A stretch of DNA of 27,999 nt from the IMG/VR virus record IMGVR_UViG_3300030419_002302, positions 1 to 27,999 of that record. The stretch is one strand, 5' to 3'. The notes under the pieces were generated by a model. The model worked only from the letters and a program-made list of their open reading frames with translations. It made no database searches and was not told where the DNA came from. Each line of letters starts with the position of its first letter. Positions within the stretch are counted from its first letter, which is position 1. This stretch comes from a virus. Of the stretch, positions 15,166 through 25,850 are shown one piece after another. The position numbers were made by a program, and so were the translations under genes.

Positions 15166-15741
15166 TTATCTAATTGGTGAATATGATTGCATGGACTTGA
15201 CCAGATCATCTAAATCAACAGAAGGTTTAGCTTCTTCAGCTTCTTCTTCTTTGACTTCTTCAGCTTCTGGTTCTACTTCTTCGTCTTCATCCTCTTCAAG
15301 TCTTGCCCCATTATCTGTGACATCACCTGAGACGGATTCAACAAGTTGCTTACGATCTGCGATACGATTCGCAACTTCTTCTTCGCTGTCAACCTTCATA
15401 AGATCTTCAACAAAGACTTCTGAAACGTATTGAGCATCCAAGCCGCTATCCTCGATAGCTTTCTGGACTTCTCTACGTTTGTTAGCCACTTGCTCCTTAA
15501 GTTCGAATTCATCGACCTTAGCACGGAGTTCGTCGGCTTCTTTCGAAGCCTCTTCTAACTTAGTTTCCAACTCTTTGACTTTTGCTTCTTCTTCTGCAAC
15601 TTTTGCTGCATTAGCTTCTGCATCAGCCTTTTGTTGTTCTACTTCTTTCTGAGCTTCTAAACGAATTTCCTCAAAAAGATTTGGATACTGAGCTGAAAAG
15701 GATTCTTTTGTGAACTCAACAGTTTTGTTGTTATCGCTCAT
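15166..15741 (-). CDS. Scaffold protein from an internal in-frame start (191 aa)
   Basis: Within the protease-scaffold gene an ATG at 15739-15741 (M234, MSDNNKTVEFTKES) is preceded by GGAGG at 15750-15754, spaced 8 nt: a better initiation signal than that of the full gene. Initiation here gives scaffold without protease, as in lambda C/Nu3, allowing many scaffolds per protease. No protease residues are included. Confidence 0.65.
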   Translation of the reverse strand: MSDNNKTVEFTKESFSAQYPNLFEEIRLEAQKEVEQQKADAEANAAKVAEEEAKVKELETKLEEASKEADELRAKVDEFELKEQVANKRREVQKAIEDSGLDAQYVSEVFVEDLMKVDSEEEVANRIADRKQLVESVSGDVTDNGARLEEDEDEEVEPEAEEVKEEEAEEAKPSVDLDDLVKSMQSYSPIR

Positions 15742-16440
15742 TTCAGAGTCCTCCGTAGTTAAATCTGAAGAATTATCCTCTTCAGATTGGTTATTAACGA
15801 GTTTAGCGACTCCATCTCCCATACCCTCCAGAATTTGGTCAAGTTGCTGATAAGCTTTTTGAATTTCTTCACTAGCTTTTATTTCAACAACTCCACCTCC
15901 CGCTGATGGATAAGTAACGAAGTCTACGGAATTAAGGAATACGATTTCCTCAACTACGTATTTCTGGCGTCTTTCTGTTTCATCATCTTCTTTTGCTTCA
16001 TGAGCTTTTATTTTAGCTCTAGCATCAATAGATGCTCCCACTTGACCCGGAAATTTTTTGGCCATCTCGTATAGCCAATTGGTAGCAGGATTGTCAACCA
16101 TTTCGACAACCGCATAAGCAGCCCCATCTTTTTTATAGGAGTCGGTTGCTACTGCTACTAAATCTTTGAATGATCTACCTTGTCTCATGCCCATAGCATG
16201 ATCCATGTACATTTGAGGTCTGGTTCTAATATGGTCTGCAACAGATTCTGCTACATCTTTGGAATAATAATAACCATTTTTAGACCAGCCTTCTCTAATT
16301 AACTTTACTGCCATTCTTTTTGTCTTACCTTTAGATTCTAAAGCTCTAACCTCAAGGTTTTCTTTTACATTATGATCGGACTCAAGAATGTTAACGTCGG
16401 GTTGAGTTTGCCCTAAGTTAGGAATGTTTTCGTTATTCAT
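15166..16440 (-). CDS. Capsid maturation protease fused to scaffold
   Basis: 424 aa in two parts. Residues ~35-190 form a prohead-protease domain of the S78/assemblin-like type. The likely catalytic His is H81 in MYMDHAMG and the likely Ser is S137 in GQVGASIDA, followed by the conserved strand VEEIVFLNSVDFVTYP. Residues ~205-424 are the scaffold: a highly charged coiled coil rich in Glu/Lys/Ala, an acidic stretch (EEDEDEEVEPE) and a short C-terminal helix that should contact the capsid protein. The protease cleaves the scaffold and itself during maturation. It has a weak Shine-Dalgarno and a structured leader at 16467-16496. Confidence 0.85.
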   Translation of the reverse strand: MNNENIPNLGQTQPDVNILESDHNVKENLEVRALESKGKTKRMAVKLIREGWSKNGYYYSKDVAESVADHIRTRPQMYMDHAMGMRQGRSFKDLVAVATDSYKKDGAAYAVVEMVDNPATNWLYEMAKKFPGQVGASIDARAKIKAHEAKEDDETERRQKYVVEEIVFLNSVDFVTYPSAGGGVVEIKASEEIQKAYQQLDQILEGMGDGVAKLVNNQSEEDNSSDLTTEDSEMSDNNKTVEFTKESFSAQYPNLFEEIRLEAQKEVEQQKADAEANAAKVAEEEAKVKELETKLEEASKEADELRAKVDEFELKEQVANKRREVQKAIEDSGLDAQYVSEVFVEDLMKVDSEEEVANRIADRKQLVESVSGDVTDNGARLEEDEDEEVEPEAEEVKEEEAEEAKPSVDLDDLVKSMQSYSPIR

Positions 16441-16825: not shown

Positions 16826-17649
16826 TCTAATACCTTTCTTCCATCCCAGTGTACCATTCTAGGGCCTAAATGCAGAGTGGTTATTTTAGGGATAAATTTT
16901 CTTAGCCCTGGTTGCCACAAACTTGAAAAATAAGAATCACATCCAGCAGCTGTATCAAACTTATCTGGATATTCTTTATCAAAATGTTCTTGACAACTAA
17001 ATAATTGACCATAACCGAGAGGTAAGGGGTTATCTAATGTACTCTCTACATTTGAATTCCAGCCCATAGCACTAAATACTTCAGGGTCTTCTAATTCAAA
17101 ATATGGTTTCATAATTCTTAATCGTGATCTAGCATCAATAGGTAATAATTGAGTGAGATCATTCATTGTAGCAAATTCTTTATAGTTACCTCCTAAATAA
17201 AGAGGGTCAATAGTGTCTAATAATTCATGCCACTCATTTTCTCCTCTAACCCCTACATCCTTTTTCTTTAATATTCTTCTATAAAAGCCATATAAGTAAG
17301 CAGTATCTAAAGGGGGTAAATAATCATATAATCTTAAAGGCCAGAATATATCAGCATCAGTAATACAAATCCAGTCTTCACCTAAATCTTTTAATATTTC
17401 CAATCCTGCATTTAATGCAGCCCCTTTATTAAAATTATTTCCAAAGGCTTCAGTTGTAAAATAGGGGATTTCTAAATTTTTACAAGTTGTAATCGTATCT
17501 CCATCACTCGGTTTAGTAACTACATAAATTTCATCGAATACATTACGATTATGAGGTAACGTAAGTTCTAAATAATCATGAAAATCAACAGAAGTTAATA
17601 AAGCTACTATTCTATCGGGTTTTCTTACGTTTACGTTTTTTCTTAGAAT
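16822..17649 (-). CDS. Glycosyltransferase (GT-A type), start codon ATT
   Basis: A TTG start at 17403 would cut the fold in half. The frame is open upstream and encodes the missing N-terminal half: RIVALLTS (first strand), LPHNRNVFDEIYVVTKPSDG, then FNKGAALNAGLE, and the DxD-type motif DAD (98-100) within WICITDADIFW. The only start-like codon at the right place is ATT at 17647-17649, preceded by GGAGG with 5 nt spacing, giving 275 aa. The C-terminal part has LGYGQLFSC and GCDSYFSSLW, like the acceptor region of galactosyltransferase-type enzymes. It may glycosylate virion proteins or host surface sugars. Family member: fairly sure; ATT start: likely. Confidence 0.75.
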   Translation of the reverse strand: MLRKNVNVRKPDRIVALLTSVDFHDYLELTLPHNRNVFDEIYVVTKPSDGDTITTCKNLEIPYFTTEAFGNNFNKGAALNAGLEILKDLGEDWICITDADIFWPLRLYDYLPPLDTAYLYGFYRRILKKKDVGVRGENEWHELLDTIDPLYLGGNYKEFATMNDLTQLLPIDARSRLRIMKPYFELEDPEVFSAMGWNSNVESTLDNPLPLGYGQLFSCQEHFDKEYPDKFDTAAGCDSYFSSLWQPGLRKFIPKITTLHLGPRMVHWDGRKVLE

Positions 17650-17875
17650 GGTTTCCTCCTTTTTCTGGATGGAGTTTGTTATGTTGAGCCGGTGTCACTA
17701 GCTTCAGATTCTTTTTACTAGAATTCTTTTTGTTATGATCTTTGTGATGGACGATTTTACCGTCCCCTTTTTTAGCACCAGCCTTTTTCCTATAATAGGT
17801 TTTACTAATGCCGCCTTTCCAGCGACCATTAGATTTACCCATACGGGCCATTGGAGATTTTTTCTTTCTAGGCAA
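17612..17875 (-). CDS. HNH endonuclease-like protein
   Basis: 87 aa. The start chosen is TTG at 17873-17875 because GGGAG lies 6 nt upstream; the next ATG would remove eight residues. It has a basic N-terminus, an NG-W-GG segment, and an HNH core: HHKDHN at 43-48, N56, and HN-x-x-H at 65-69. The C-terminus is extremely basic. Free-standing HNH proteins of this kind in phages are homing-type nickases or packaging-associated nucleases. The gene directly abuts the stop of the upstream membrane-protein gene and overlaps the glycosyltransferase start by 38 nt. Confidence 0.75.
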   Translation of the reverse strand: MPRKKKSPMARMGKSNGRWKGGISKTYYRKKAGAKKGDGKIVHHKDHNKKNSSKKNLKLVTPAQHNKLHPEKGGNHSKKKRKRKKTR

Positions 17876-18055
17876 TTAAATCTCCCTTTCTTGTTCCTTG
17901 TAATTCTTTTTATTAGCTTTCTTTTTCTTCTTCTTTTTAGCTTTAGGTTTTTTTGGTTCTTCGCAACAATCATTACTCATTACGTTATTCTTCCAAATAT
18001 AAAGCCATAATAAAGCAAAGACTAAAAGTAGCATCATAATTAATATATTCATCAT
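17876..18055 (-). CDS. Small single-pass membrane protein (59 aa)
   Basis: MMNILIMMLLLVFALLWLYIW forms one membrane segment. It is followed by CC (residues 30-31), a Lys-rich tract (KKKKKKKANKK) and a charged tail. The start chosen overlaps the upstream TGA (ATGA); a start 12 nt earlier (MGLAMMN) is possible. The topology suggests an N-out or N-in inner-membrane anchor. No function is recognised; a lysis accessory role is conceivable given the neighbouring coiled-coil protein. Confidence 0.6.
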   Translation of the reverse strand: MMNILIMMLLLVFALLWLYIWKNNVMSNDCCEEPKKPKAKKKKKKKANKKNYKEQEREI

Positions 18056-18747
18056 CGCCAATCCCATAGTTTAATTAAGTTATATGTAACTCCGATACCT
18101 ACAATAGGTTCCGTCAAACCAGTACTAGTATTATAAGCAATACCTAAAAATGGACCTAAACTAAATTGGTTTCTCGGAGGTTCTATCTTTTGAACTTGAC
18201 CTCGACCCCTTATAGTTATACCGCCTACATAAGTTTCATCAATATAAGAAACAAAACTATTTCTATCTAGTTTCTCTATCTTAGGAGCCAAATTAATTTC
18301 TCCTACTGTATTGAAAGTAACTTTCTTAGCGGTTAAGTAATCATCTTTCCAGGCTACTAATACTTGCCCTTTAGTTTCATAATTCCCTACTCTATTAACT
18401 TGTTTATCTTCAAATTCAAACCTCTTATTTCCCGAAATACTATTAGATAATATAGGTTTTAAATTTAAAGTATCTATCCTTTCTTCAAGGATTTTTATTT
18501 TAGCTAATAAAGTAGCGTTTTCTTTCCCACGAATTCTATCATGTTCTTCTAAATCTGATATCAATCGCTCGTTATCTTTACCTAGTAAATTAACCTTATT
18601 TTTTAACTCTTCTATCTGATTTTCTTGGGATGTAATAACTAAAGATAATTCTTCTATCTTATTATTGTTAGTTATGTAAACACAATAAAGAAGAGCAATA
18701 GAGATAAGGAAAGAAATTAATTCTTTAAAGTATTTCATTAACGGCAT
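18052..18747 (-). CDS. Membrane-anchored coiled-coil protein (i-spanin-like candidate)
   Basis: 231 aa: an N-terminal membrane segment (residues ~8-26, LISFLISIALLYCVYI), a long coiled coil (~28-95), a beta-rich middle, and a Gly-rich C-terminal strand pair (FSLGPFLGIAYNTSTGLTEP, IVGIGVTYNLIKL). N-anchored coiled-coil proteins ending in such strands occur in phages of Bacteroidota-like hosts, near lysis genes. The gene overlaps the second CsgG-like gene by 23 nt. A role in bridging or disrupting the envelope at lysis is plausible but not shown. A GAGG element supports the start used. Confidence 0.55.
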   Translation of the reverse strand: MPLMKYFKELISFLISIALLYCVYITNNNKIEELSLVITSQENQIEELKNKVNLLGKDNERLISDLEEHDRIRGKENATLLAKIKILEERIDTLNLKPILSNSISGNKRFEFEDKQVNRVGNYETKGQVLVAWKDDYLTAKKVTFNTVGEINLAPKIEKLDRNSFVSYIDETYVGGITIRGRGQVQKIEPPRNQFSLGPFLGIAYNTSTGLTEPIVGIGVTYNLIKLWDWR

Positions 18748-19237
18748 TATATATAGCCTCTTTTAAAGCCCCGCCTATTTCTGTCCTATCAAATGGAATA
18801 TCATCTTCAATTTGGAAGCCTCTAGCATTAATCTGTTTATTAACTGTTCCAATTCCGTTACCGGTTTTTACTTCACCGGTTTTATTATTTTTTAATTCTA
18901 CTACAACTCTAACTTCAGTAGTCTGACTCTGGGTTCTGAATAATCCTAATATTGTAGTAGATTTTCTTGGACTCCCTAAATAAACAACTCTAGCAGTCAT
19001 TTCAAAATCTGAATCATTTTCAACTAATTCATATCTAGAATCCATTACATTTTCTTCCAAGATATTAGTAATACCTAGAAAAACCCTAGTATCTTCTAAA
19101 CCTTCTACTTCAGCTTGATTTACAAACTTAGAAATACTTAATGTAGGTATCTGTAAACGGTCTTGACCCACCATTGTAGGTTGTGGTAATTGAGCGTGTA
19201 TTAGCCCAATAAATAATATTAATAATAATCGTTTCAT
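18725..19237 (-). CDS. CsgG-like secreted protein, second copy (170 aa)
   Basis: Signal peptide MKRLLLILFIGLIHAQ, with cleavage likely after HAQ. The mature part has the order expected for the CsgG/curli-secretion-like fold: PTLSISKF start, SRYELVENDSDFEMTARVVYLG ('tdYlv.g.v' strand), RVVVELKNNKTGEV (strand-turn), GIGTV and a C-terminal helix TEIGGALKEAIYNAVNEI. No lipobox Cys. It is shorter than CsgG (~260-280 aa). A strong Shine-Dalgarno (AAGGAGATGGA). CsgG forms an outer-membrane export pore for curli; whether this short form can do so is unknown. Confidence 0.6.
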   Translation of the reverse strand: MKRLLLILFIGLIHAQLPQPTMVGQDRLQIPTLSISKFVNQAEVEGLEDTRVFLGITNILEENVMDSRYELVENDSDFEMTARVVYLGSPRKSTTILGLFRTQSQTTEVRVVVELKNNKTGEVKTGNGIGTVNKQINARGFQIEDDIPFDRTEIGGALKEAIYNAVNEIL

Positions 19238-19246
19238 TCCATCTCC

Positions 19247-20236
19247 TTAAAAATTGGCCCCAAATACTATGGAGTAATTTATATTTCTTTCGCCTAAATC
19301 ATTTACTAAAGTATTATACCCAACATAGAATCCTAGATTCATTTTAAAGGTATTAGTAACTTTAAAGTCTATATTCATTCCCGGATAAATTAATATCGGA
19401 CTTTCTAATAATAAATATTTCTTATCAACTTTAAATCCTTCAAAATACCTAAATACCGTATAACTTAAGAATGTTTGTAAATTTAAAGTATTCTCATTCT
19501 TCAATTCAATGGGGTAACGATATCCATACATAGTATTGATATTAAAAAAACCCTGTTCGGTTATCTGTCCTACACTAGAGCTTAATAACCCCACTTGAAG
19601 CAAATTACCTTTTAATAATTTACCATAGTTCCCAGTAATTAACCAGTCACTACCTTCAAAAGTTTGGTAATACAATAATCCCGCGTTCCAAAAAACACTT
19701 TGATTTTTGCCTTTAAATTTATGACTTCTGCCATGTAAACCCAAGATTTTCTTCAGATCTAGAGTAATATTAACTGTATAATTCATTTCCTGAGTTAAAT
19801 CAAAGTTTTCCTCAGTATAAACAGAGTTTAATGAGGTGACAACTCCATAATCATAAAAGGTATTTACAATATCTCCACCAACAAAACTGGGTTCACCCAC
19901 TCCAATATCTTCATCTTCATCACCTTCTAACTCATTTTCTAAATTTAAAGTTAAAGATGAGGCTAATACTTCTTCTGCTACATTTACTGCACAAGGGAAT
20001 AAATTTTCAAAATCTTTATAGACTTGTTGAGTCCAAGCTTGTAATGTTCCGTCTGCTACCTCAGTCCAAGTAAAGAATCTTCGTTGATTATAATAAGTGA
20101 CCCAAAAACCACCTTCAGTTACTTGAGTTGAATAATTCAGATTAACCGCTTGTTGATTACAAGGATCTATATAATTATAACCGAAAGTTTGTGGAAAAGC
20201 TAAACTAAGTAGCAGACTAAATAAAAAGACTCTCAT
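19247..20236 (-). CDS. Outer-membrane beta-barrel protein (329 aa)
   Basis: Signal peptide MRVFLFSLLLSLAFPQ. The mature protein has repeated amphipathic strands with alternating aromatic residues (NAGLLYYQTFEG, WLITGNYGKLL, LNLQTFLSYTVFRYFEGF, MNLGFYVGYNTLV) and ends in ...YSIVFGANF, with the terminal Phe typical of BAM-assembled barrels. An acidic stretch (ELEGDEDEDIGVGE) lies near residue 105. It sits between the two CsgG-like genes with gaps of 5 and 9 nt, which suggests a joint function. Family not recognised; similar to transporter-like barrels. Confidence 0.65.
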   Translation of the reverse strand: MRVFLFSLLLSLAFPQTFGYNYIDPCNQQAVNLNYSTQVTEGGFWVTYYNQRRFFTWTEVADGTLQAWTQQVYKDFENLFPCAVNVAEEVLASSLTLNLENELEGDEDEDIGVGEPSFVGGDIVNTFYDYGVVTSLNSVYTEENFDLTQEMNYTVNITLDLKKILGLHGRSHKFKGKNQSVFWNAGLLYYQTFEGSDWLITGNYGKLLKGNLLQVGLLSSSVGQITEQGFFNINTMYGYRYPIELKNENTLNLQTFLSYTVFRYFEGFKVDKKYLLLESPILIYPGMNIDFKVTNTFKMNLGFYVGYNTLVNDLGERNINYSIVFGANF

Positions 20237-20241
20237 TCATT

Positions 20242-20937
20242 TTACCAACCACGTTTTTCCATCCTTCTTAATACATTTGCTACAGCAGTTATAACAGCTC
20301 CTGTTGTTGCATAAGATACAGTTGATTGGTCAAAACTCATATTAAGGTCTTTTAAAAATCCTTCTCCTTCTTGAGAAGATGTGCCTAATCCACTACCAGT
20401 AATATATCTTCCATTTTCTACGTTGACTAAACGAACTTGAATACCAACCATTGTTTTATTGGATAGTTTTGCTTTTCTTCGTTGGACTACTTCTTCCCTA
20501 GATACTGCAAAATCATATAACTCAGCATATACAAAATATTTAGTTTGAGCAAATTGTCCTACGCTATCTAGTTCTTTATCAAGCATACCATCAACGCTTC
20601 TCTCCCATTCTCTTACCATCTTATTTAGCACTTCTTGTTTTTCTTCTACAAAATAAAACCTACCCGCTTCTTCTAGTACTTCAATAATACGTTGAGTAAC
20701 TCCAAAGCCAACTCTTTTATCTTTTAGTTCAGGGTATTGGTTTATGATATTTTGAGGAATGCTAATTTGTATTAATTGAACTCCTTCTGGTTCTCCATCA
20801 TACCATTTAATATCATCTAAAGTCTTTTCAGCTTCATAGTTAGCAACCTTTGATTGCACTTTTACTTTACCTGATTGAGCTGCACAAGCAGTCATCATAA
20901 AAGGTAATATCATCATTAAGATTAATAGTTTTTTCAT
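20242..20937 (-). CDS. CsgG-like lipoprotein (231 aa)
   Basis: Signal peptide ending MMTAC (lipobox-like, Cys18), so probably an outer-membrane lipoprotein. The mature domain matches the CsgG-like fold order: VGFGVTQRIIEVLEEAGRFYFVEEKQEVL ('l...l...grF.vveR..l'), then TKYFVYAELYDFAV, the basic strand region QRRKAKLSNKTMVGIQVRLVNVENGRYI, GSGLGTS, and a C-terminal helix with AVITAVANVLRRM. CsgG is the curli subunit exporter; CsgG-like lipoproteins also exist outside curli systems. No CsgA-, B-, E- or F-like gene was recognised, so curli export itself is not supported. Confidence 0.65.
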   Translation of the reverse strand: MKKLLILMMILPFMMTACAAQSGKVKVQSKVANYEAEKTLDDIKWYDGEPEGVQLIQISIPQNIINQYPELKDKRVGFGVTQRIIEVLEEAGRFYFVEEKQEVLNKMVREWERSVDGMLDKELDSVGQFAQTKYFVYAELYDFAVSREEVVQRRKAKLSNKTMVGIQVRLVNVENGRYITGSGLGTSSQEGEGFLKDLNMSFDQSTVSYATTGAVITAVANVLRRMEKRGW

Positions 20938-20947
20938 TTTTCTGTTC

Positions 20948-21328
20948 CTACTTTTTAAATTTCTTTAGTGGGTCGCCAGTAATGTCTTCAATTTCTTTAC
21001 TTAATGATTTAACATCTCTTTGTAATCCATTAATATCGCTTTTAATCTCGGATAAATCAACACCTTCATAACTGTCAATTCTTTCTTTAAGATAATCAAT
21101 ATCTTTTTCAAAAGCTTCTAACTTTTGTCCGACTAATTCAATATCTGAGGTTTCTGCAAACCCTTGAACTACTTGTTCTAACGAATCAATACGACCTGTA
21201 AAAGTATACCATCCCGCAATAAGAGAAGATAATACTGTTACTATAGCAATTATATTTTGGATTGATAATCCAAATTTTGCATTTTTGAGATTATCTACTA
21301 ATCCCTCTGCATCGACTTGTTTTGCCAT
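20948..21328 (-). CDS. Single-pass membrane coiled-coil protein (126 aa)
   Basis: A membrane segment at about residues 22-44 (IQNIIAIVTVLSSLIAGWYTF) is followed by a long coiled coil (GRIDSLEQVVQ to VKSLSKEIED) and a Lys-rich end. No signal peptide cleavage is expected. The Shine-Dalgarno AAGGAG overlaps the stop of the 42-aa gene. It could be a holin accessory, an Rz-like protein or a scaffold for the envelope proteins next to it. Family not recognised. Confidence 0.65.
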   Translation of the reverse strand: MAKQVDAEGLVDNLKNAKFGLSIQNIIAIVTVLSSLIAGWYTFTGRIDSLEQVVQGFAETSDIELVGQKLEAFEKDIDYLKERIDSYEGVDLSEIKSDINGLQRDVKSLSKEIEDITGDPLKKFKK

Positions 21329-21337
21329 AATTTCTCC

Positions 21338-21466
21338 TTATTTTTTATATTTACAAGTTTTAAAGCCTAATTTGCTTAATCCTAACTTGTCTTCATTTCC
21401 ACAAATAAAATATCTATGAACTAAAGCACCAATTAATACTCCAAGTAATAATAGTAGTAATTTCAT
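21338..21466 (-). CDS. Small membrane protein (42 aa)
   Basis: MKLLLLLLGVLIGALVHRYF, then ICGNEDKLGL and a basic tail KTCKYKK. One hydrophobic segment and two Cys are visible. It has a Shine-Dalgarno (AGAGGACGG) 4-5 nt before ATG and sits 12 nt after the PorV-like gene. It is too short for a family call and is possibly a membrane adaptor. Confidence 0.6.
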   Translation of the reverse strand: MKLLLLLLGVLIGALVHRYFICGNEDKLGLSKLGFKTCKYKK

Positions 21467-21478
21467 TTTTCCGTCCTC

Positions 21479-22354
21479 TTAAATTTCAAAACCTAATGAT
21501 AACATAACGGTTTTGTTATGGAAGCTATCCGGGTTCATTAAAAAACCAACATCTAATCCAAGTCCTTTAGCTTTAATTCCAGCCCCGAAAGTGAAATACT
21601 CAACCTCGTATTCCGGCTCCATATAATATCCTAGTCTAATCTCAAACAAATCTTTATAATAATATTCAGTTCCTAAACCTACTGAATAATATTCGTTATA
21701 TAATTTTGCGTCGGCTGCAATAGTAAATAAATTACCTAAAGTATATTTTGCAGCTAATCCCAATGAAGTAGGTAAATCTAAACTTTCATCAATAAAGTCA
21801 CTTTTAGTTCCTAAGTCTTTTACAACAATACCAATAGAAGCATAATCTCTTTCACTTAATCTGAAAGATTTTAAAGCCCCAATATCAATCCCAAAACTTG
21901 AACCAATATCAACAGTATCTATAAAATCATGGTTGTAAATATTAAATCTACCACCTAAAAGCCAACCTTTAATATTCTTACCATAACTTCCACTTAATTT
22001 ATAAGAAGAAGATTGAAAGCTTCCAATGATGATCCCGTTTGCATCGGCATGAACTTGGTCACCATAATCAAAATAAAATAATTCAACCCCGAAGCCTTTA
22101 GTATGAGTATATGTTAAATTGTGATATTGCATATCATCATTAAGGTTAGGGAGCCAAGATACACTAGTAAATCCAGCATAATTTGTGTCTAAAGCAATCA
22201 AAGCGGGGTTATGATATAAGTTCTTAATATTAGCATGAGATATACCTGTGTTTCCCATTCCCGCACTATAAACACTTGGGTTAATAGTAAAAATTTGATT
22301 AGCTTGAGCAAATAAGCCTGCAGTTAATAATACTATACTTAATAATTTTTTCAT
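21479..22354 (-). CDS. PorV/PorQ-like outer-membrane protein
   Basis: Signal peptide MKKLLSIVLLTAGLFAQ. Next comes the hallmark N-terminal motif of the PorV/PorQ/FadL-like family: SAGMGNTGIS, then NIKNLYHNPALI. Fourteen or so amphipathic strands follow (e.g. FGVELFYFDYG, YKLSGSYGKNI, FEIRLGYYMEPE, GLGLDVGFLM), 291 aa in all, near the usual length. PorV is the outer-membrane shuttle that collects type IX cargo and hands it to the attachment machinery. The ATG overlaps the TGA of the type IX cargo gene by four bases, which is strong evidence that the two are produced together and may interact. Whether PorV- or PorQ-like cannot be decided by eye. Confidence 0.75.
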   Translation of the reverse strand: MKKLLSIVLLTAGLFAQANQIFTINPSVYSAGMGNTGISHANIKNLYHNPALIALDTNYAGFTSVSWLPNLNDDMQYHNLTYTHTKGFGVELFYFDYGDQVHADANGIIIGSFQSSSYKLSGSYGKNIKGWLLGGRFNIYNHDFIDTVDIGSSFGIDIGALKSFRLSERDYASIGIVVKDLGTKSDFIDESLDLPTSLGLAAKYTLGNLFTIAADAKLYNEYYSVGLGTEYYYKDLFEIRLGYYMEPEYEVEYFTFGAGIKAKGLGLDVGFLMNPDSFHNKTVMLSLGFEI

Positions 22355-25164
22355 CGAATCACCGTAAATTTCTTAGATTTAACTCTATTTTCTGTTTCTA
22401 ATACAAATAAATATATCCCAGGTTTTAAAGTTTCATACCCTAAAAATACTGATACTTCAGGCAACCAAATGTTTGGACTGTTTGTAAAATCAAAAGTATG
22501 AATACCTGCTGATACTACTTCATTTAATACAACTCCTATTAATTGACCCACAGGATTATATATACTAATCTTAGCAATACCTTCTTCTTCCATAAAGAAT
22601 TGGAAATTAGCTGAGGTAGAGAATGGATTAGGATAAATATAAGTTATATCATCTTCTTCAGGTTTACCCCCTCCAAATGCCCAATACTTATTCCATACTA
22701 ATACTTTTCCATCTTGTCTTTCCATTAACAAGTCATCCCCGTTTGGATTACCAGCATTTGCTTTTCCAACAAAGGTTAAATCTGCTTCAGTCCATTCAGC
22801 ATCTGGGAAGTCTGCTGTAAATACTAATTCTAATCCTACCATTTCTTGAGTAATATAATAATCTTCTGGAGCGTTGGTTGGCGAATTATCTAGCCCTCCA
22901 AAACTAACTGTTTTATACCCTAAATCATCAACTTCACTTTCATTTAAGTAAGTCATCCAAGGGCCTGGCAATAAACCTGTTGAAGCATCTATAAATTGTA
23001 ATTCATTTGTATTATATTTAAACTCAAACTCAAATCCCGCAATATTAATTGGAATACCTTGTTCATCTAATTGAGGAGATATAGTTAATGGTACTACAAC
23101 TTGATTACCTGATTGAACTTTTACAGTAGAGTCAGCAGGTAAAGATAATAATACATCTGGATTAGTTAATAATTTACTTAAGCTTCTATTAGTTTCCATT
23201 GTTCTTGACCAACCATCTGGAGGATTTCCATTACCCCAACGATAGTAAGTTGTTCCATCTAAACTTTGATATCCGTCTCCTCCACTTTCTTGAACTTTTG
23301 TTCCTGATAAATTCATGTCTCCGGTAAAGTAATATGCAATATCATCTTCTGTATAATCTGGATTTACATCATTACCAAAGCTAGAACTACCAGCTCCTAT
23401 ACTTACTTGTAAAGTATCATTACCTGTTTGAACATCATCCATAAGTGGATTTAAAATTTCAACTTGACCCTCATCAAGTGTTTCAGTTTCTTGGTCTAAA
23501 TCATCATCCCAAAAAACTGTAAATTCTCTTCTTTGTGGATAAGATACACCTCTTAAAGTTTGATAATAATTTAAGGTTTCTGAATTACCATTTGCTTTCA
23601 AGTTATCAATACTAGACCATTGTTGATAAGTATTTCCATTAGCATGAGCATAAGAAGTTTCAAATACCCCACTTACATAAGCCCATAAGAAATATGTATC
23701 GTTTAATTGAAATACATCATCTCCATCCACATCACCAATTAAATAACCACTTGGTGATTCTATATCAATATCATTAGAGTTTTTATATTTAGCTGATTGA
23801 AAGTTAAAGGAAGCGATAGCATCATTGATATTAGTAATAGCTCCTCTATCTAGTTCAAGCTGATCATGGTCTCCAATATAATCCCCCGCATCTGGTGGCC
23901 AGAATGATACTCGATACGTATTATTTCTAGGTAAAGCTATATTCCAATAGCCCTTATCATCAGTATAAGTAAAATCCCAATAAGAGATATCTTTAAATCC
24001 CGTCCCATTATGAGTTTGGTCACTAGTTCCTATTTCTGAATCGTCATTAAATTTATAATGGTAAAAAGTACCTGAATTATCCCCGATAACATCATCAGAT
24101 AAATCTTCATCAGCAGTGTTTGCGTCATCTGATATATTTTCAATATTATACCAAGTAGGATATGGGGTAGCAGTTCCATTTCCATCAGTATCAGGGTTAT
24201 TTTCATCTAACTCAAATACTACTTTCCAATAAGGATATTTATTTTGAGTCCATTCACCTGAATCTACTGATCCATCCCCGTCAGCATCAATGAATTCTCC
24301 TATATATCTTCCAAATCCTTCAACATCAACAAGTTTAGGATGTAGGGTCATATCCCCTCTTGCTCCTCCATTATTAGTGGAATCTGTTCCCCAATTACCA
24401 TCTATGTAAACTTTATAAGGTAATAAATAATCATCACTGACATAAGTATAATAACCTGTTCCACCACTATAAAGTGTTGGGATTCTAAATGAATGAGTTT
24501 CATAATTATCAACTACATCATCTACTTTAAAATATAATTTTAATAATTGAGCTTGATTTCCTTCACCACTACCAAATGTTTTATCAGGTGTACCATCATT
24601 ATCATCATCACGTCCATGTGATACCATTGTAATTCTTAACCAGTCATAATCATTAGTAGAAGTTGAGACCTCATTACCATTATCTTGAATACTATCTTTA
24701 TAGCCGATATTAGAATAATAGGTTACTTCAAAAGAATAATCAGTTGAATTATTTGAAGTTTCATCTCCTTCAGTCCAGTTAGCTATATGACTACCAACGA
24801 CAACTTTTGAATTCCCAGCTTGCCAAGCATTTATATTAGTTTCTCCTGATTCTACCCAAGTAAAGATATCATTATCAAAAGCAATATCAAATCTAAATGC
24901 AGTAACATCTGCGCCATCATCATCAAGAGTAATTTCTATTTCTAGAATATCATCGCGCCATATATCAAAGTTATTGTTTTTATAAGCCGGTAAATCTTCG
25001 TCTTCAGCTAGGAATGTTTGTAAGTTTTGAGTTTCCTGATCTTTCCACCATAGTTTTGGTGTATCCCATGTCCCTATTTGTTTGACACGGATGATCGGAT
25101 CTTGTCCGAACAAGAACACACTAGAGCTGAGTAAGAGTAACGCGTTGGTAAATAGTCTGTACAC
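22351..25164 (-). CDS. Secreted cohesin/dockerin-like protein with type IX sorting domain
   Basis: 937 aa. Start GTG (AAGGAAAG upstream) and signal peptide MYRLFTNALLLLSSSVFLFGQ. Modules: a cohesin-like beta region (~22-240); calcium-loop motifs rich in Asp/Gly at ~185-197, ~293-305 (DADGDGSVDSGEW), and a dockerin-like GDVDGDDVFQLND at ~477-489; a second cohesin-like domain (~680-825, VPLTISP...GFEFEFKYN); and a C-terminal type IX sorting domain (~842-937) with YPNPFS, KISIYNPVGQLI, AGIHTFDF, KPGIYLFVL and final KKFTVIR. Such proteins are exported across the outer membrane and attached to or released from the surface. Very unusual for a phage. Possible roles: surface masking, adhesion, exclusion. 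No catalytic domain seen. Confidence 0.8.
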   Translation of the reverse strand: MYRLFTNALLLLSSSVFLFGQDPIIRVKQIGTWDTPKLWWKDQETQNLQTFLAEDEDLPAYKNNNFDIWRDDILEIEITLDDDGADVTAFRFDIAFDNDIFTWVESGETNINAWQAGNSKVVVGSHIANWTEGDETSNNSTDYSFEVTYYSNIGYKDSIQDNGNEVSTSTNDYDWLRITMVSHGRDDDNDGTPDKTFGSGEGNQAQLLKLYFKVDDVVDNYETHSFRIPTLYSGGTGYYTYVSDDYLLPYKVYIDGNWGTDSTNNGGARGDMTLHPKLVDVEGFGRYIGEFIDADGDGSVDSGEWTQNKYPYWKVVFELDENNPDTDGNGTATPYPTWYNIENISDDANTADEDLSDDVIGDNSGTFYHYKFNDDSEIGTSDQTHNGTGFKDISYWDFTYTDDKGYWNIALPRNNTYRVSFWPPDAGDYIGDHDQLELDRGAITNINDAIASFNFQSAKYKNSNDIDIESPSGYLIGDVDGDDVFQLNDTYFLWAYVSGVFETSYAHANGNTYQQWSSIDNLKANGNSETLNYYQTLRGVSYPQRREFTVFWDDDLDQETETLDEGQVEILNPLMDDVQTGNDTLQVSIGAGSSSFGNDVNPDYTEDDIAYYFTGDMNLSGTKVQESGGDGYQSLDGTTYYRWGNGNPPDGWSRTMETNRSLSKLLTNPDVLLSLPADSTVKVQSGNQVVVPLTISPQLDEQGIPINIAGFEFEFKYNTNELQFIDASTGLLPGPWMTYLNESEVDDLGYKTVSFGGLDNSPTNAPEDYYITQEMVGLELVFTADFPDAEWTEADLTFVGKANAGNPNGDDLLMERQDGKVLVWNKYWAFGGGKPEEDDITYIYPNPFSTSANFQFFMEEEGIAKISIYNPVGQLIGVVLNEVVSAGIHTFDFTNSPNIWLPEVSVFLGYETLKPGIYLFVLETENRVKSKKFTVIR

Positions 25165-25258: not shown

Positions 25259-25648
25259 TTATGCGGATTTTCTTATCTTCTCCATCGACCTACCAGCAAA
25301 ATAAGCTCCATACACTGTCATGAGTAGAGTTTGGTAAACCGGGACGTAAGAACTATTAATAGAAAAGTCTCCTACGTTACCATCAAAAAAACTTAAGAAA
25401 ACAAATACTACAGTTAAAAATATTAAGGTTAATGGTCTAATATTTTTTGATAACCAAGAACCGTGTTTCATATCAGCTTCCCACCTTGCACTTACTTGTT
25501 CTTGTGCTTTCTGTTCAGCATTTGCTAATAGAGTTTCTAATTTTAGTTTTGCTTCAGCTTTCTCGTCGTCAGAGGTGTGGAGGTTATCAATGATTCCCCC
25601 CACGTCTTTTAAGATTCCGCCGGATAATATTTCCATTATCTTAGGCAT
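25259..25648 (-). CDS. Holin-like protein (Holin_3TMs / gene-transfer-agent type)
   Basis: The start chosen is ATG at 25646-25648 (MPKIMEILSGG), because AAAGGAGATAAAG precedes it; a longer in-frame ATG start has no such signal. 129 aa: an N-terminal helix, a Glu/Lys/Ala-rich coiled coil (DDEKAEAKLKLETLLANAEQ), then W-x-x-x-RPLTLIFLTVVFVFLSFF and a second membrane segment (VPVYQTLLMTVYGAYFAGRS). The 'W....RP' plus 'G.Y..GRs' endings match the Holin_3TMs family. It would permeabilise the inner membrane at lysis. No endolysin is visible in this window. Confidence 0.75.
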   Translation of the reverse strand: MPKIMEILSGGILKDVGGIIDNLHTSDDEKAEAKLKLETLLANAEQKAQEQVSARWEADMKHGSWLSKNIRPLTLIFLTVVFVFLSFFDGNVGDFSINSSYVPVYQTLLMTVYGAYFAGRSMEKIRKSA

Positions 25649-25850
25649 CTTTATCTCCTTTTTCGTCATAGCTATCATCCATTGTAGCTAAGACTAAATT
25701 TCGTAATCGTTTATCATTAGTTACATCAAAAGCATATAATTGCTCTTGACCTTTTAACTTCATAGTAATAAGCATCATTTCTACTAATCCGTCTAGTTCA
25801 TCAGAAGCTTCTTTTGCTTCATCAACATAAATAGGTTTAATCTTGTCCAT
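25641..25850 (-). CDS. Small helical protein between portal and holin (69 aa)
   Basis: MDKIKPIYVDEAKEASDELD..., with a helix (GLVEMMLITMKLK) and an acidic, Asp-rich end. It overlaps the portal 3' end by 14 nt and the holin start by 8 nt, so all three are translationally coupled. No motif recognised. Confidence 0.65.
   Translation of the reverse strand: MDKIKPIYVDEAKEASDELDGLVEMMLITMKLKGQEQLYAFDVTNDKRLRNLVLATMDDSYDEKGDKDA

Follow-up and report, generated by a model that had tools for sequence, protein, structure and literature searches.

A recurrent phage gene cassette that may display T9SS-exported proteins on the surface of Bacteroidota-type hosts

The window analysed here, a stretch of 27,999 nucleotides, comes from a phage contig of 33.9 kb (locus L001). 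At positions 17876-25164 it carries nine ORFs, all on the minus strand and arranged head to tail, most of which overlap or have near-zero spacing (Table 1). The first-pass annotation had described nine tightly packed minus-strand genes, and the ORF coordinates bear this out: the main genes are spaced by −23 to +10 bp, with the exception of the B-C gap, which is occupied by a 42-aa ORF. A promoter and terminator scan returned fewer promoter-like sites than shuffled sequence and was uninformative.

Table 1. Features of the cassette and its flanks, in window coordinates
Feature	Coordinates	Strand	Description and basis
Holin (flank)	25259..25678	-	Directly upstream of cassette; GTA_holin_3TM 27.5 vs 24.8; phrog_3427 holin 1.2e-30
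A	22351..25164	-	937 aa, exported; C-terminal sorting domain of T9SS type A at 843-935
B	21479..22354	-	291-aa PorV/PorQ-family outer-membrane barrel (NF033709, PorV profile match)
42-aa ORF	21338..21466	-	Single TM, in the B-C gap; L002 and L003 have comparable short TM ORFs in this position
C	20948..21328	-	126-aa inner-membrane single-TM coiled-coil protein; conserved in 10 sequences
D	20242..20937	-	231 aa; CsgG/PelC fold (AF2 model); lipobox-like Cys
E	19247..20236	-	329 aa, exported; two-Cys N-terminal segment, predicted C-terminal 12-stranded beta-barrel
F	18725..19237	-	170 aa, exported; D paralogue (hhalign)
G	18052..18747	-	231 aa; inner-membrane TM, coiled coil and C-terminal beta segment; conserved in 8 sequences
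H	17876..18067	-	63 aa; single TM, Lys-rich tail; L002 counterpart after G is 46 aa
HNH endonuclease (flank, outside cassette)	17612..17875	-	Abuts cassette; HNH_3 30.3 vs 24.8
Presumed capsid protease (flank)	15166-16440		PHROGs: tape-measure match of coiled-coil type only

The upstream flank consists of a portal gene and the holin, both confirmed by profiles; a few kb beyond them, the contig also encodes an endolysin. On the downstream side, the HNH gene is followed by two small genes, then by the putative "protease" and finally by the major capsid gene. The cassette had been placed between portal/holin and the capsid protease; the portal and holin side of this placement stands, whereas the PHROGs profiles gave no protease match for the other. 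A chimeric assembly was rejected, as each cassette edge is present in independently assembled contigs: locus L003 reads portal-orf69-holin-(two small ORFs)-A-B-C-D, and locus L002 reads A-B-C-D-E-F-G-HNH-orf86-"protease"-MCP. Elsewhere in this contig, unknown bases interrupt the gene just upstream of the portal (window ~28000; L001 1979-2494), the L003 version of which is uninterrupted and encodes 311 aa. Beyond the window, at L001 6109-7934 (contig 32108-33933), two phage proteins have Hint/intein-like ends, judged by eye and unusual for structural genes; one of the two is collagen-like, with GPTGPT repeats.

Signal peptides of Bacteroidota are reported to be followed by Gln at +1, the Q-rule (PMC10653852). 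When signal peptides with this residue were scored by a simple pattern, they were found in 161/175 members of the A family, 9/9 of B, 87/93 of D, 89/90 of E and 67/81 of F, against 143/1714 for the other genes of the same loci. The signal peptides claimed by the first-pass annotation are thus present in five families, and their Gln ends fit Bacteroidota-type hosts. For C and G the count is 0, in keeping with their anchoring in the inner membrane. These two proteins each have one TM and coiled coils, and D has a lipobox-like Cys in the window group.

The C-terminal domain of protein A matches TIGR04183, the NCBI model of the T9SS type A sorting domain, with 35.3 bits against a cut-off of 23, and relatives from L007, L035 and the cultured Flavobacterium phage immuto also pass this model. 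With Pfam, the window protein falls just under the cut-off for Cohesin (23.1 vs 24.1) and scores 16.5 vs 27 for Por_Secre_tail. Its relatives in L035, L091 and immuto (gp015) exceed the Cohesin cut-off of 24.1, with 43.2, 36.6 and 36.7, respectively, and the same three are above the Pfam cut-off for Por_Secre_tail. A dockerin-like Ca-binding motif lies near residue 478 of the window protein; Dockerin_1 is below its cut-off everywhere, with 15.3-19.3 vs 22.9 in relatives and no match in the window protein. Many relatives of the cassette add a C-type lectin (Lectin_C) protein with a dockerin-like tail; in immuto, gp013 is a C-type lectin protein. LamG domains also occur among A and its partners. 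In immuto, regions of A that other phages encode in one gene are divided between two neighbouring genes, gp014 and gp015, a hint that both parts function jointly. The idea that the lectin is a copied tail adhesin that masks the phage's own receptor is not supported, since in immuto the domain was found only in gp013 and in none of the tail proteins.

An alternative use of the displayed scaffold is "sibling capture": with the help of lectins in those phages that have them, it would attach infected cells to neighbouring cells or to particles and thereby bring progeny into contact with new hosts. The C-type lectin, LamG and cohesin domains of A and its partners are in keeping with such adhesion, and the same proposal has been made for pelagiphage curli (PMC7029224, PMC9599517). 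However, no lectin was recognised in the window cassette, the lectin proteins of the relatives are only moderately variable, and Melnitz, a phage with CsgGF, showed no clumping (PMC9004378). We therefore regard adhesion as an unlikely, if reasonable, alternative.

Protein B scored 125.4 bits with the PorV_fam model NF033709 (cut-off 90), and 8/8 B members match at E<=0.1. Its profile also matches the solved PorV structure 6h3i_F with E=5.8e-12. B did not pass the PorV equivalog model NF033710, with 80.9 against a cut-off of 250. The PorV shuttle recognises all type A CTDs, and cargos of type B frequently have a shuttle gene of their own in genetic linkage (PMC12618676).

The AF2 model of D (pLDDT 67.8) was built with 27 sequences. 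Its top Foldseek hits are CsgG (8.9e-9), and VIA gave a Z of 14.0 for CsgG, with an rmsd of 4.5 over 162 residues, and of 11.0 for PelC; in the viral fold library, D matched an uncultured Caudovirales protein annotated as CsgG. By these model comparisons, the predicted fold of D is that of CsgG/PelC. At the sequence level, the CsgG family PF03783 gave no hit in the window's own record and matched 2/10 D members weakly (best E 0.0082), the D and F sequence profiles found no match in the PDB, and hhalign of D and F against the single E. coli CsgG gave low probability. The hhalign comparison of D with F gave 97.8%, and F is a paralogue of D. Because the segments of D that match the CsgG membrane hairpins are charged, D may be a PelC-like periplasmic ring without a barrel of its own. 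This would resemble the PelBC architecture, in which a lipoprotein ring sits on a beta-barrel (PMC12141448).

Alignments of E show a conserved N-terminal segment with two Cys (DPC...PC). The AF2 model of E (pLDDT 59.6) gave VIA Z scores of 19.9 for NalP and 14.7 for FapF, and we tentatively assign the modelled region to a 12-stranded beta-barrel of the autotransporter/FapF type. The viral fold library returned nothing for E at E<=0.001, and the D, E and F profiles did not match the single E. coli CsgE and CsgF, which is a weak test. The model of E also resembles small porins and FadL, which raises the question of whether E, with a collar of D and F, could be a phage-supplied porin for which A serves as a substrate-capturing surface binder. 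A role in uptake has been raised for pelagiphage CsgG (PMC7029224). However, it would leave the T9SS cargo and the PorV partner unexplained, and family scans found no enzyme domain in A; we therefore consider a nutritional function very improbable.

C and G both have weak PHROG matches to Rz-like spanins, of the coiled-coil type, and G scored 19.0 bits for DUF6808 (cut-off 24.4). Together with the holin next to the cassette, these matches could mean that D-E-F and the coiled-coil proteins C and G form a complex for outer-membrane disruption and release, a spanin substitute co-expressed with holin and endolysin. An endolysin or a recognised holin lies within 7 kb of the cassette in 13/24 dereplicated loci, and CsgGF has been proposed as a regulator of lysis in Melnitz (PMC9004378). 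However, most cassettes lack G and C, and a lysis complex would have no need of a T9SS-exported cohesin scaffold and a lectin. Immuto has its annotated endolysin-holin pair (gp191-gp190) ~28 kb from the cassette, although another annotated endolysin is ~6 kb away. We regard an aid to lysis, too, as an unlikely but reasonable alternative.

The gene-neighbourhood search proposed in the first-pass annotation found the conserved set in other phage contigs, with a wider recurrence than expected. An IMG/VR scan with D gave 11 loci. L002 and L003 have the same backbone as the window phage, and L004-L011 have a T4-like backbone, with a fused gp46/47-like gene and other structural proteins, as judged from sequences. 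The order A-B-C-D-E-F-G is kept in L002-L011 as far as the contigs reach, with occasional small inserted genes, and among the genes compared L004-L011 have no detectable gene in common with the window contig outside the cassette. Transfer of the cassette among unrelated phages with a common host range is therefore probable. Between C and D, T4-like phages (L004-L012 group, 7 loci) have an inserted gene for a protein of 95 aa that carries two Cys clusters of the 4Fe-4S ferredoxin type.

A broader scan found D relatives encoded in at least 506 viral contigs. Dereplication of the loci with full context by D identity left 31 at 95% and 11 at 80%. At 95%, E and F follow D in 31/31 loci and A precedes D in 30/31; the order A-D-E-F is found in 30/31 loci at 95% and in 11/11 at 80%, and most of these loci also encode a small inner-membrane protein ahead of D. 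The minimal conserved unit is therefore A, a small inner-membrane protein and D-E-F. The subgroup of the window and T4-like phages is the only one in which B, C, G and the short TM ORFs were seen, and B is absent from most cassettes; a scan with B as a single protein gave no matches, the B members having been recovered through the D loci. In 71 loci, the gene before D encodes a Pro/Gln-rich single-TM protein of ~107 aa, which has no detectable homology with C. Some cassette neighbours are 120-aa proteins with 2 TMs, for which no link to the window holin was found. Conservation is highest for D, and there is more variation in E, A and the lectin, as would be expected of surface-exposed proteins.

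In immuto, gp017 is D (35% identity, E=2e-32), and the small TM protein gp016 lies between it and gp015. The adjacent gp018 is E, with the DPC...PC motif and the C-terminal region in common, and gp019 aligns with F at 28%. A first, narrower genome scan found no cellular D. In a broader scan of genomes from 84,980 species, D was found on a single contig that looks like a large phage, and among 395 Bacteroidota genomes there were one solid match, on that same contig, and two weak ones. At this search depth, the D family is essentially phage-borne. Other secreted proteins are encoded near some cassettes. A DNA/RNA non-specific endonuclease (Endonuclease_NS over cut-off) lies beside the cassette in ~15 loci in all (for example, L051 12496-13107), and gp012 of immuto is annotated as a NUC1-type nuclease. 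A protein of ~150 aa that has an HExxH-like stretch and matches no Pfam family is encoded near the cassette in 47 loci in all (for example, L058 14506-14937).

The earlier reading is supported in part: the genes form a discrete, recurrent phage envelope module, which may remodel the host surface for masking, superinfection block or release. The module is not a generic outer-membrane set, as it combines a T9SS type A cargo, a PorV/PorQ-family protein and two CsgG-fold proteins on either side of a probable beta-barrel. The best-supported reading is that the cassette is a surface-display module for T9SS-bearing hosts, most likely providing a coat that blocks competing phages or the re-adsorption of progeny; we give this a probability of about 0.5. 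Late in infection, a scaffold would be loaded onto the host cell surface through the host T9SS, which we infer to be present in the host of the window phage. Because protein A carries a type A CTD in addition to its Sec signal, it would be carried over the outer membrane by the host translocon. In the window/T4-like subgroup, B would be a phage-supplied shuttle that takes A after translocation, a role suggested by the established function of PorV. On the basis of fold and gene order, D and F may form CsgG/PelC-like periplasmic rings or collars beneath the putative barrel E and be connected with the inner membrane through C or, in other phages, through the ~107-aa Pro-rich protein; the role of this D-E-F complex would be to anchor, gate or assist the scaffold on the surface. 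In many relatives, the dockerin-like tail of the C-type lectin could bind to the cohesin of A, so that the cell would carry a lectin coat.

The purpose of the cassette may be a superinfection block, adhesion or help with lysis, and a coat that limits superinfection appears to be the most likely benefit. Whether the parts amount to a phage-specific envelope system without a cellular counterpart, in which a T9SS-exported cohesin scaffold, often lectin-bearing and served in one lineage by a PorV-type shuttle, is held by D/F/E, is a more tentative proposal that we put forward with some reserve. For phages of Bacteroidota-type bacteria, surface display would mean that a recurrent set among their hypothetical proteins appears to take over the host T9SS and surface. 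This offers a way into the question of how superinfection, adhesion or release is controlled by these phages. The function is testable because immuto, a cultured phage, has the cassette core.

We compared the cassette with known systems. In the literature searched, whose coverage leaves out most subscription papers, neither this operon nor a phage PorV nor the D-E-F set was found, and the gene set seems to be new. Its closest parallels in phages are the curli (T8SS) clusters of pelagiphages and Melnitz, which are likewise multi-gene outer-membrane modules with a CsgG-fold protein and occur across phage families (PMC7029224, PMC9004378, PMC9599517). However, those clusters encode a sequence-recognisable CsgG, CsgF and curli repeats of the alphaproteobacterial type, whereas the likeness to CsgG in the cassette is at the level of the fold, a probable barrel is flanked by two paralogues with the CsgG fold, the cargo is T9SS-tagged and no CsgF was recognised. 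We do not class the cassette as a T8SS, since the CsgG sequence model is not passed by D.

Cryophage genes likewise carry T9SS type A sorting domains and are thought to use the host translocon (PMC7468147). Their cargos, for which superinfection exclusion has been suggested (PMC7468147), are variable single genes (endoglucanase, GH39, PA14), whereas the cargo described here belongs to a conserved operon with D-E-F, to which one subgroup of cassettes adds a PorV-family partner. In the host PorV and SprB-SprF-type pairs, a PorV-family barrel also stands beside a CTD cargo (PMC12618676, PMC12635249), but B is phage-encoded, short and below the PorV equivalog cut-off, and none of the other A-G genes scanned matched a T9SS component. 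As in the PelBC/CsgG secretion complexes (PMC12141448), the CsgG-fold proteins D and F are encoded beside a probable outer-membrane barrel gene; unlike those complexes, the cassette has no Pel or curli cargo recognised among its proteins in family scans. We do not class it as a T9SS and group it with phage-encoded outer-membrane export and display modules, where it adds a phage lineage to the CsgG-fold outer-membrane proteins.
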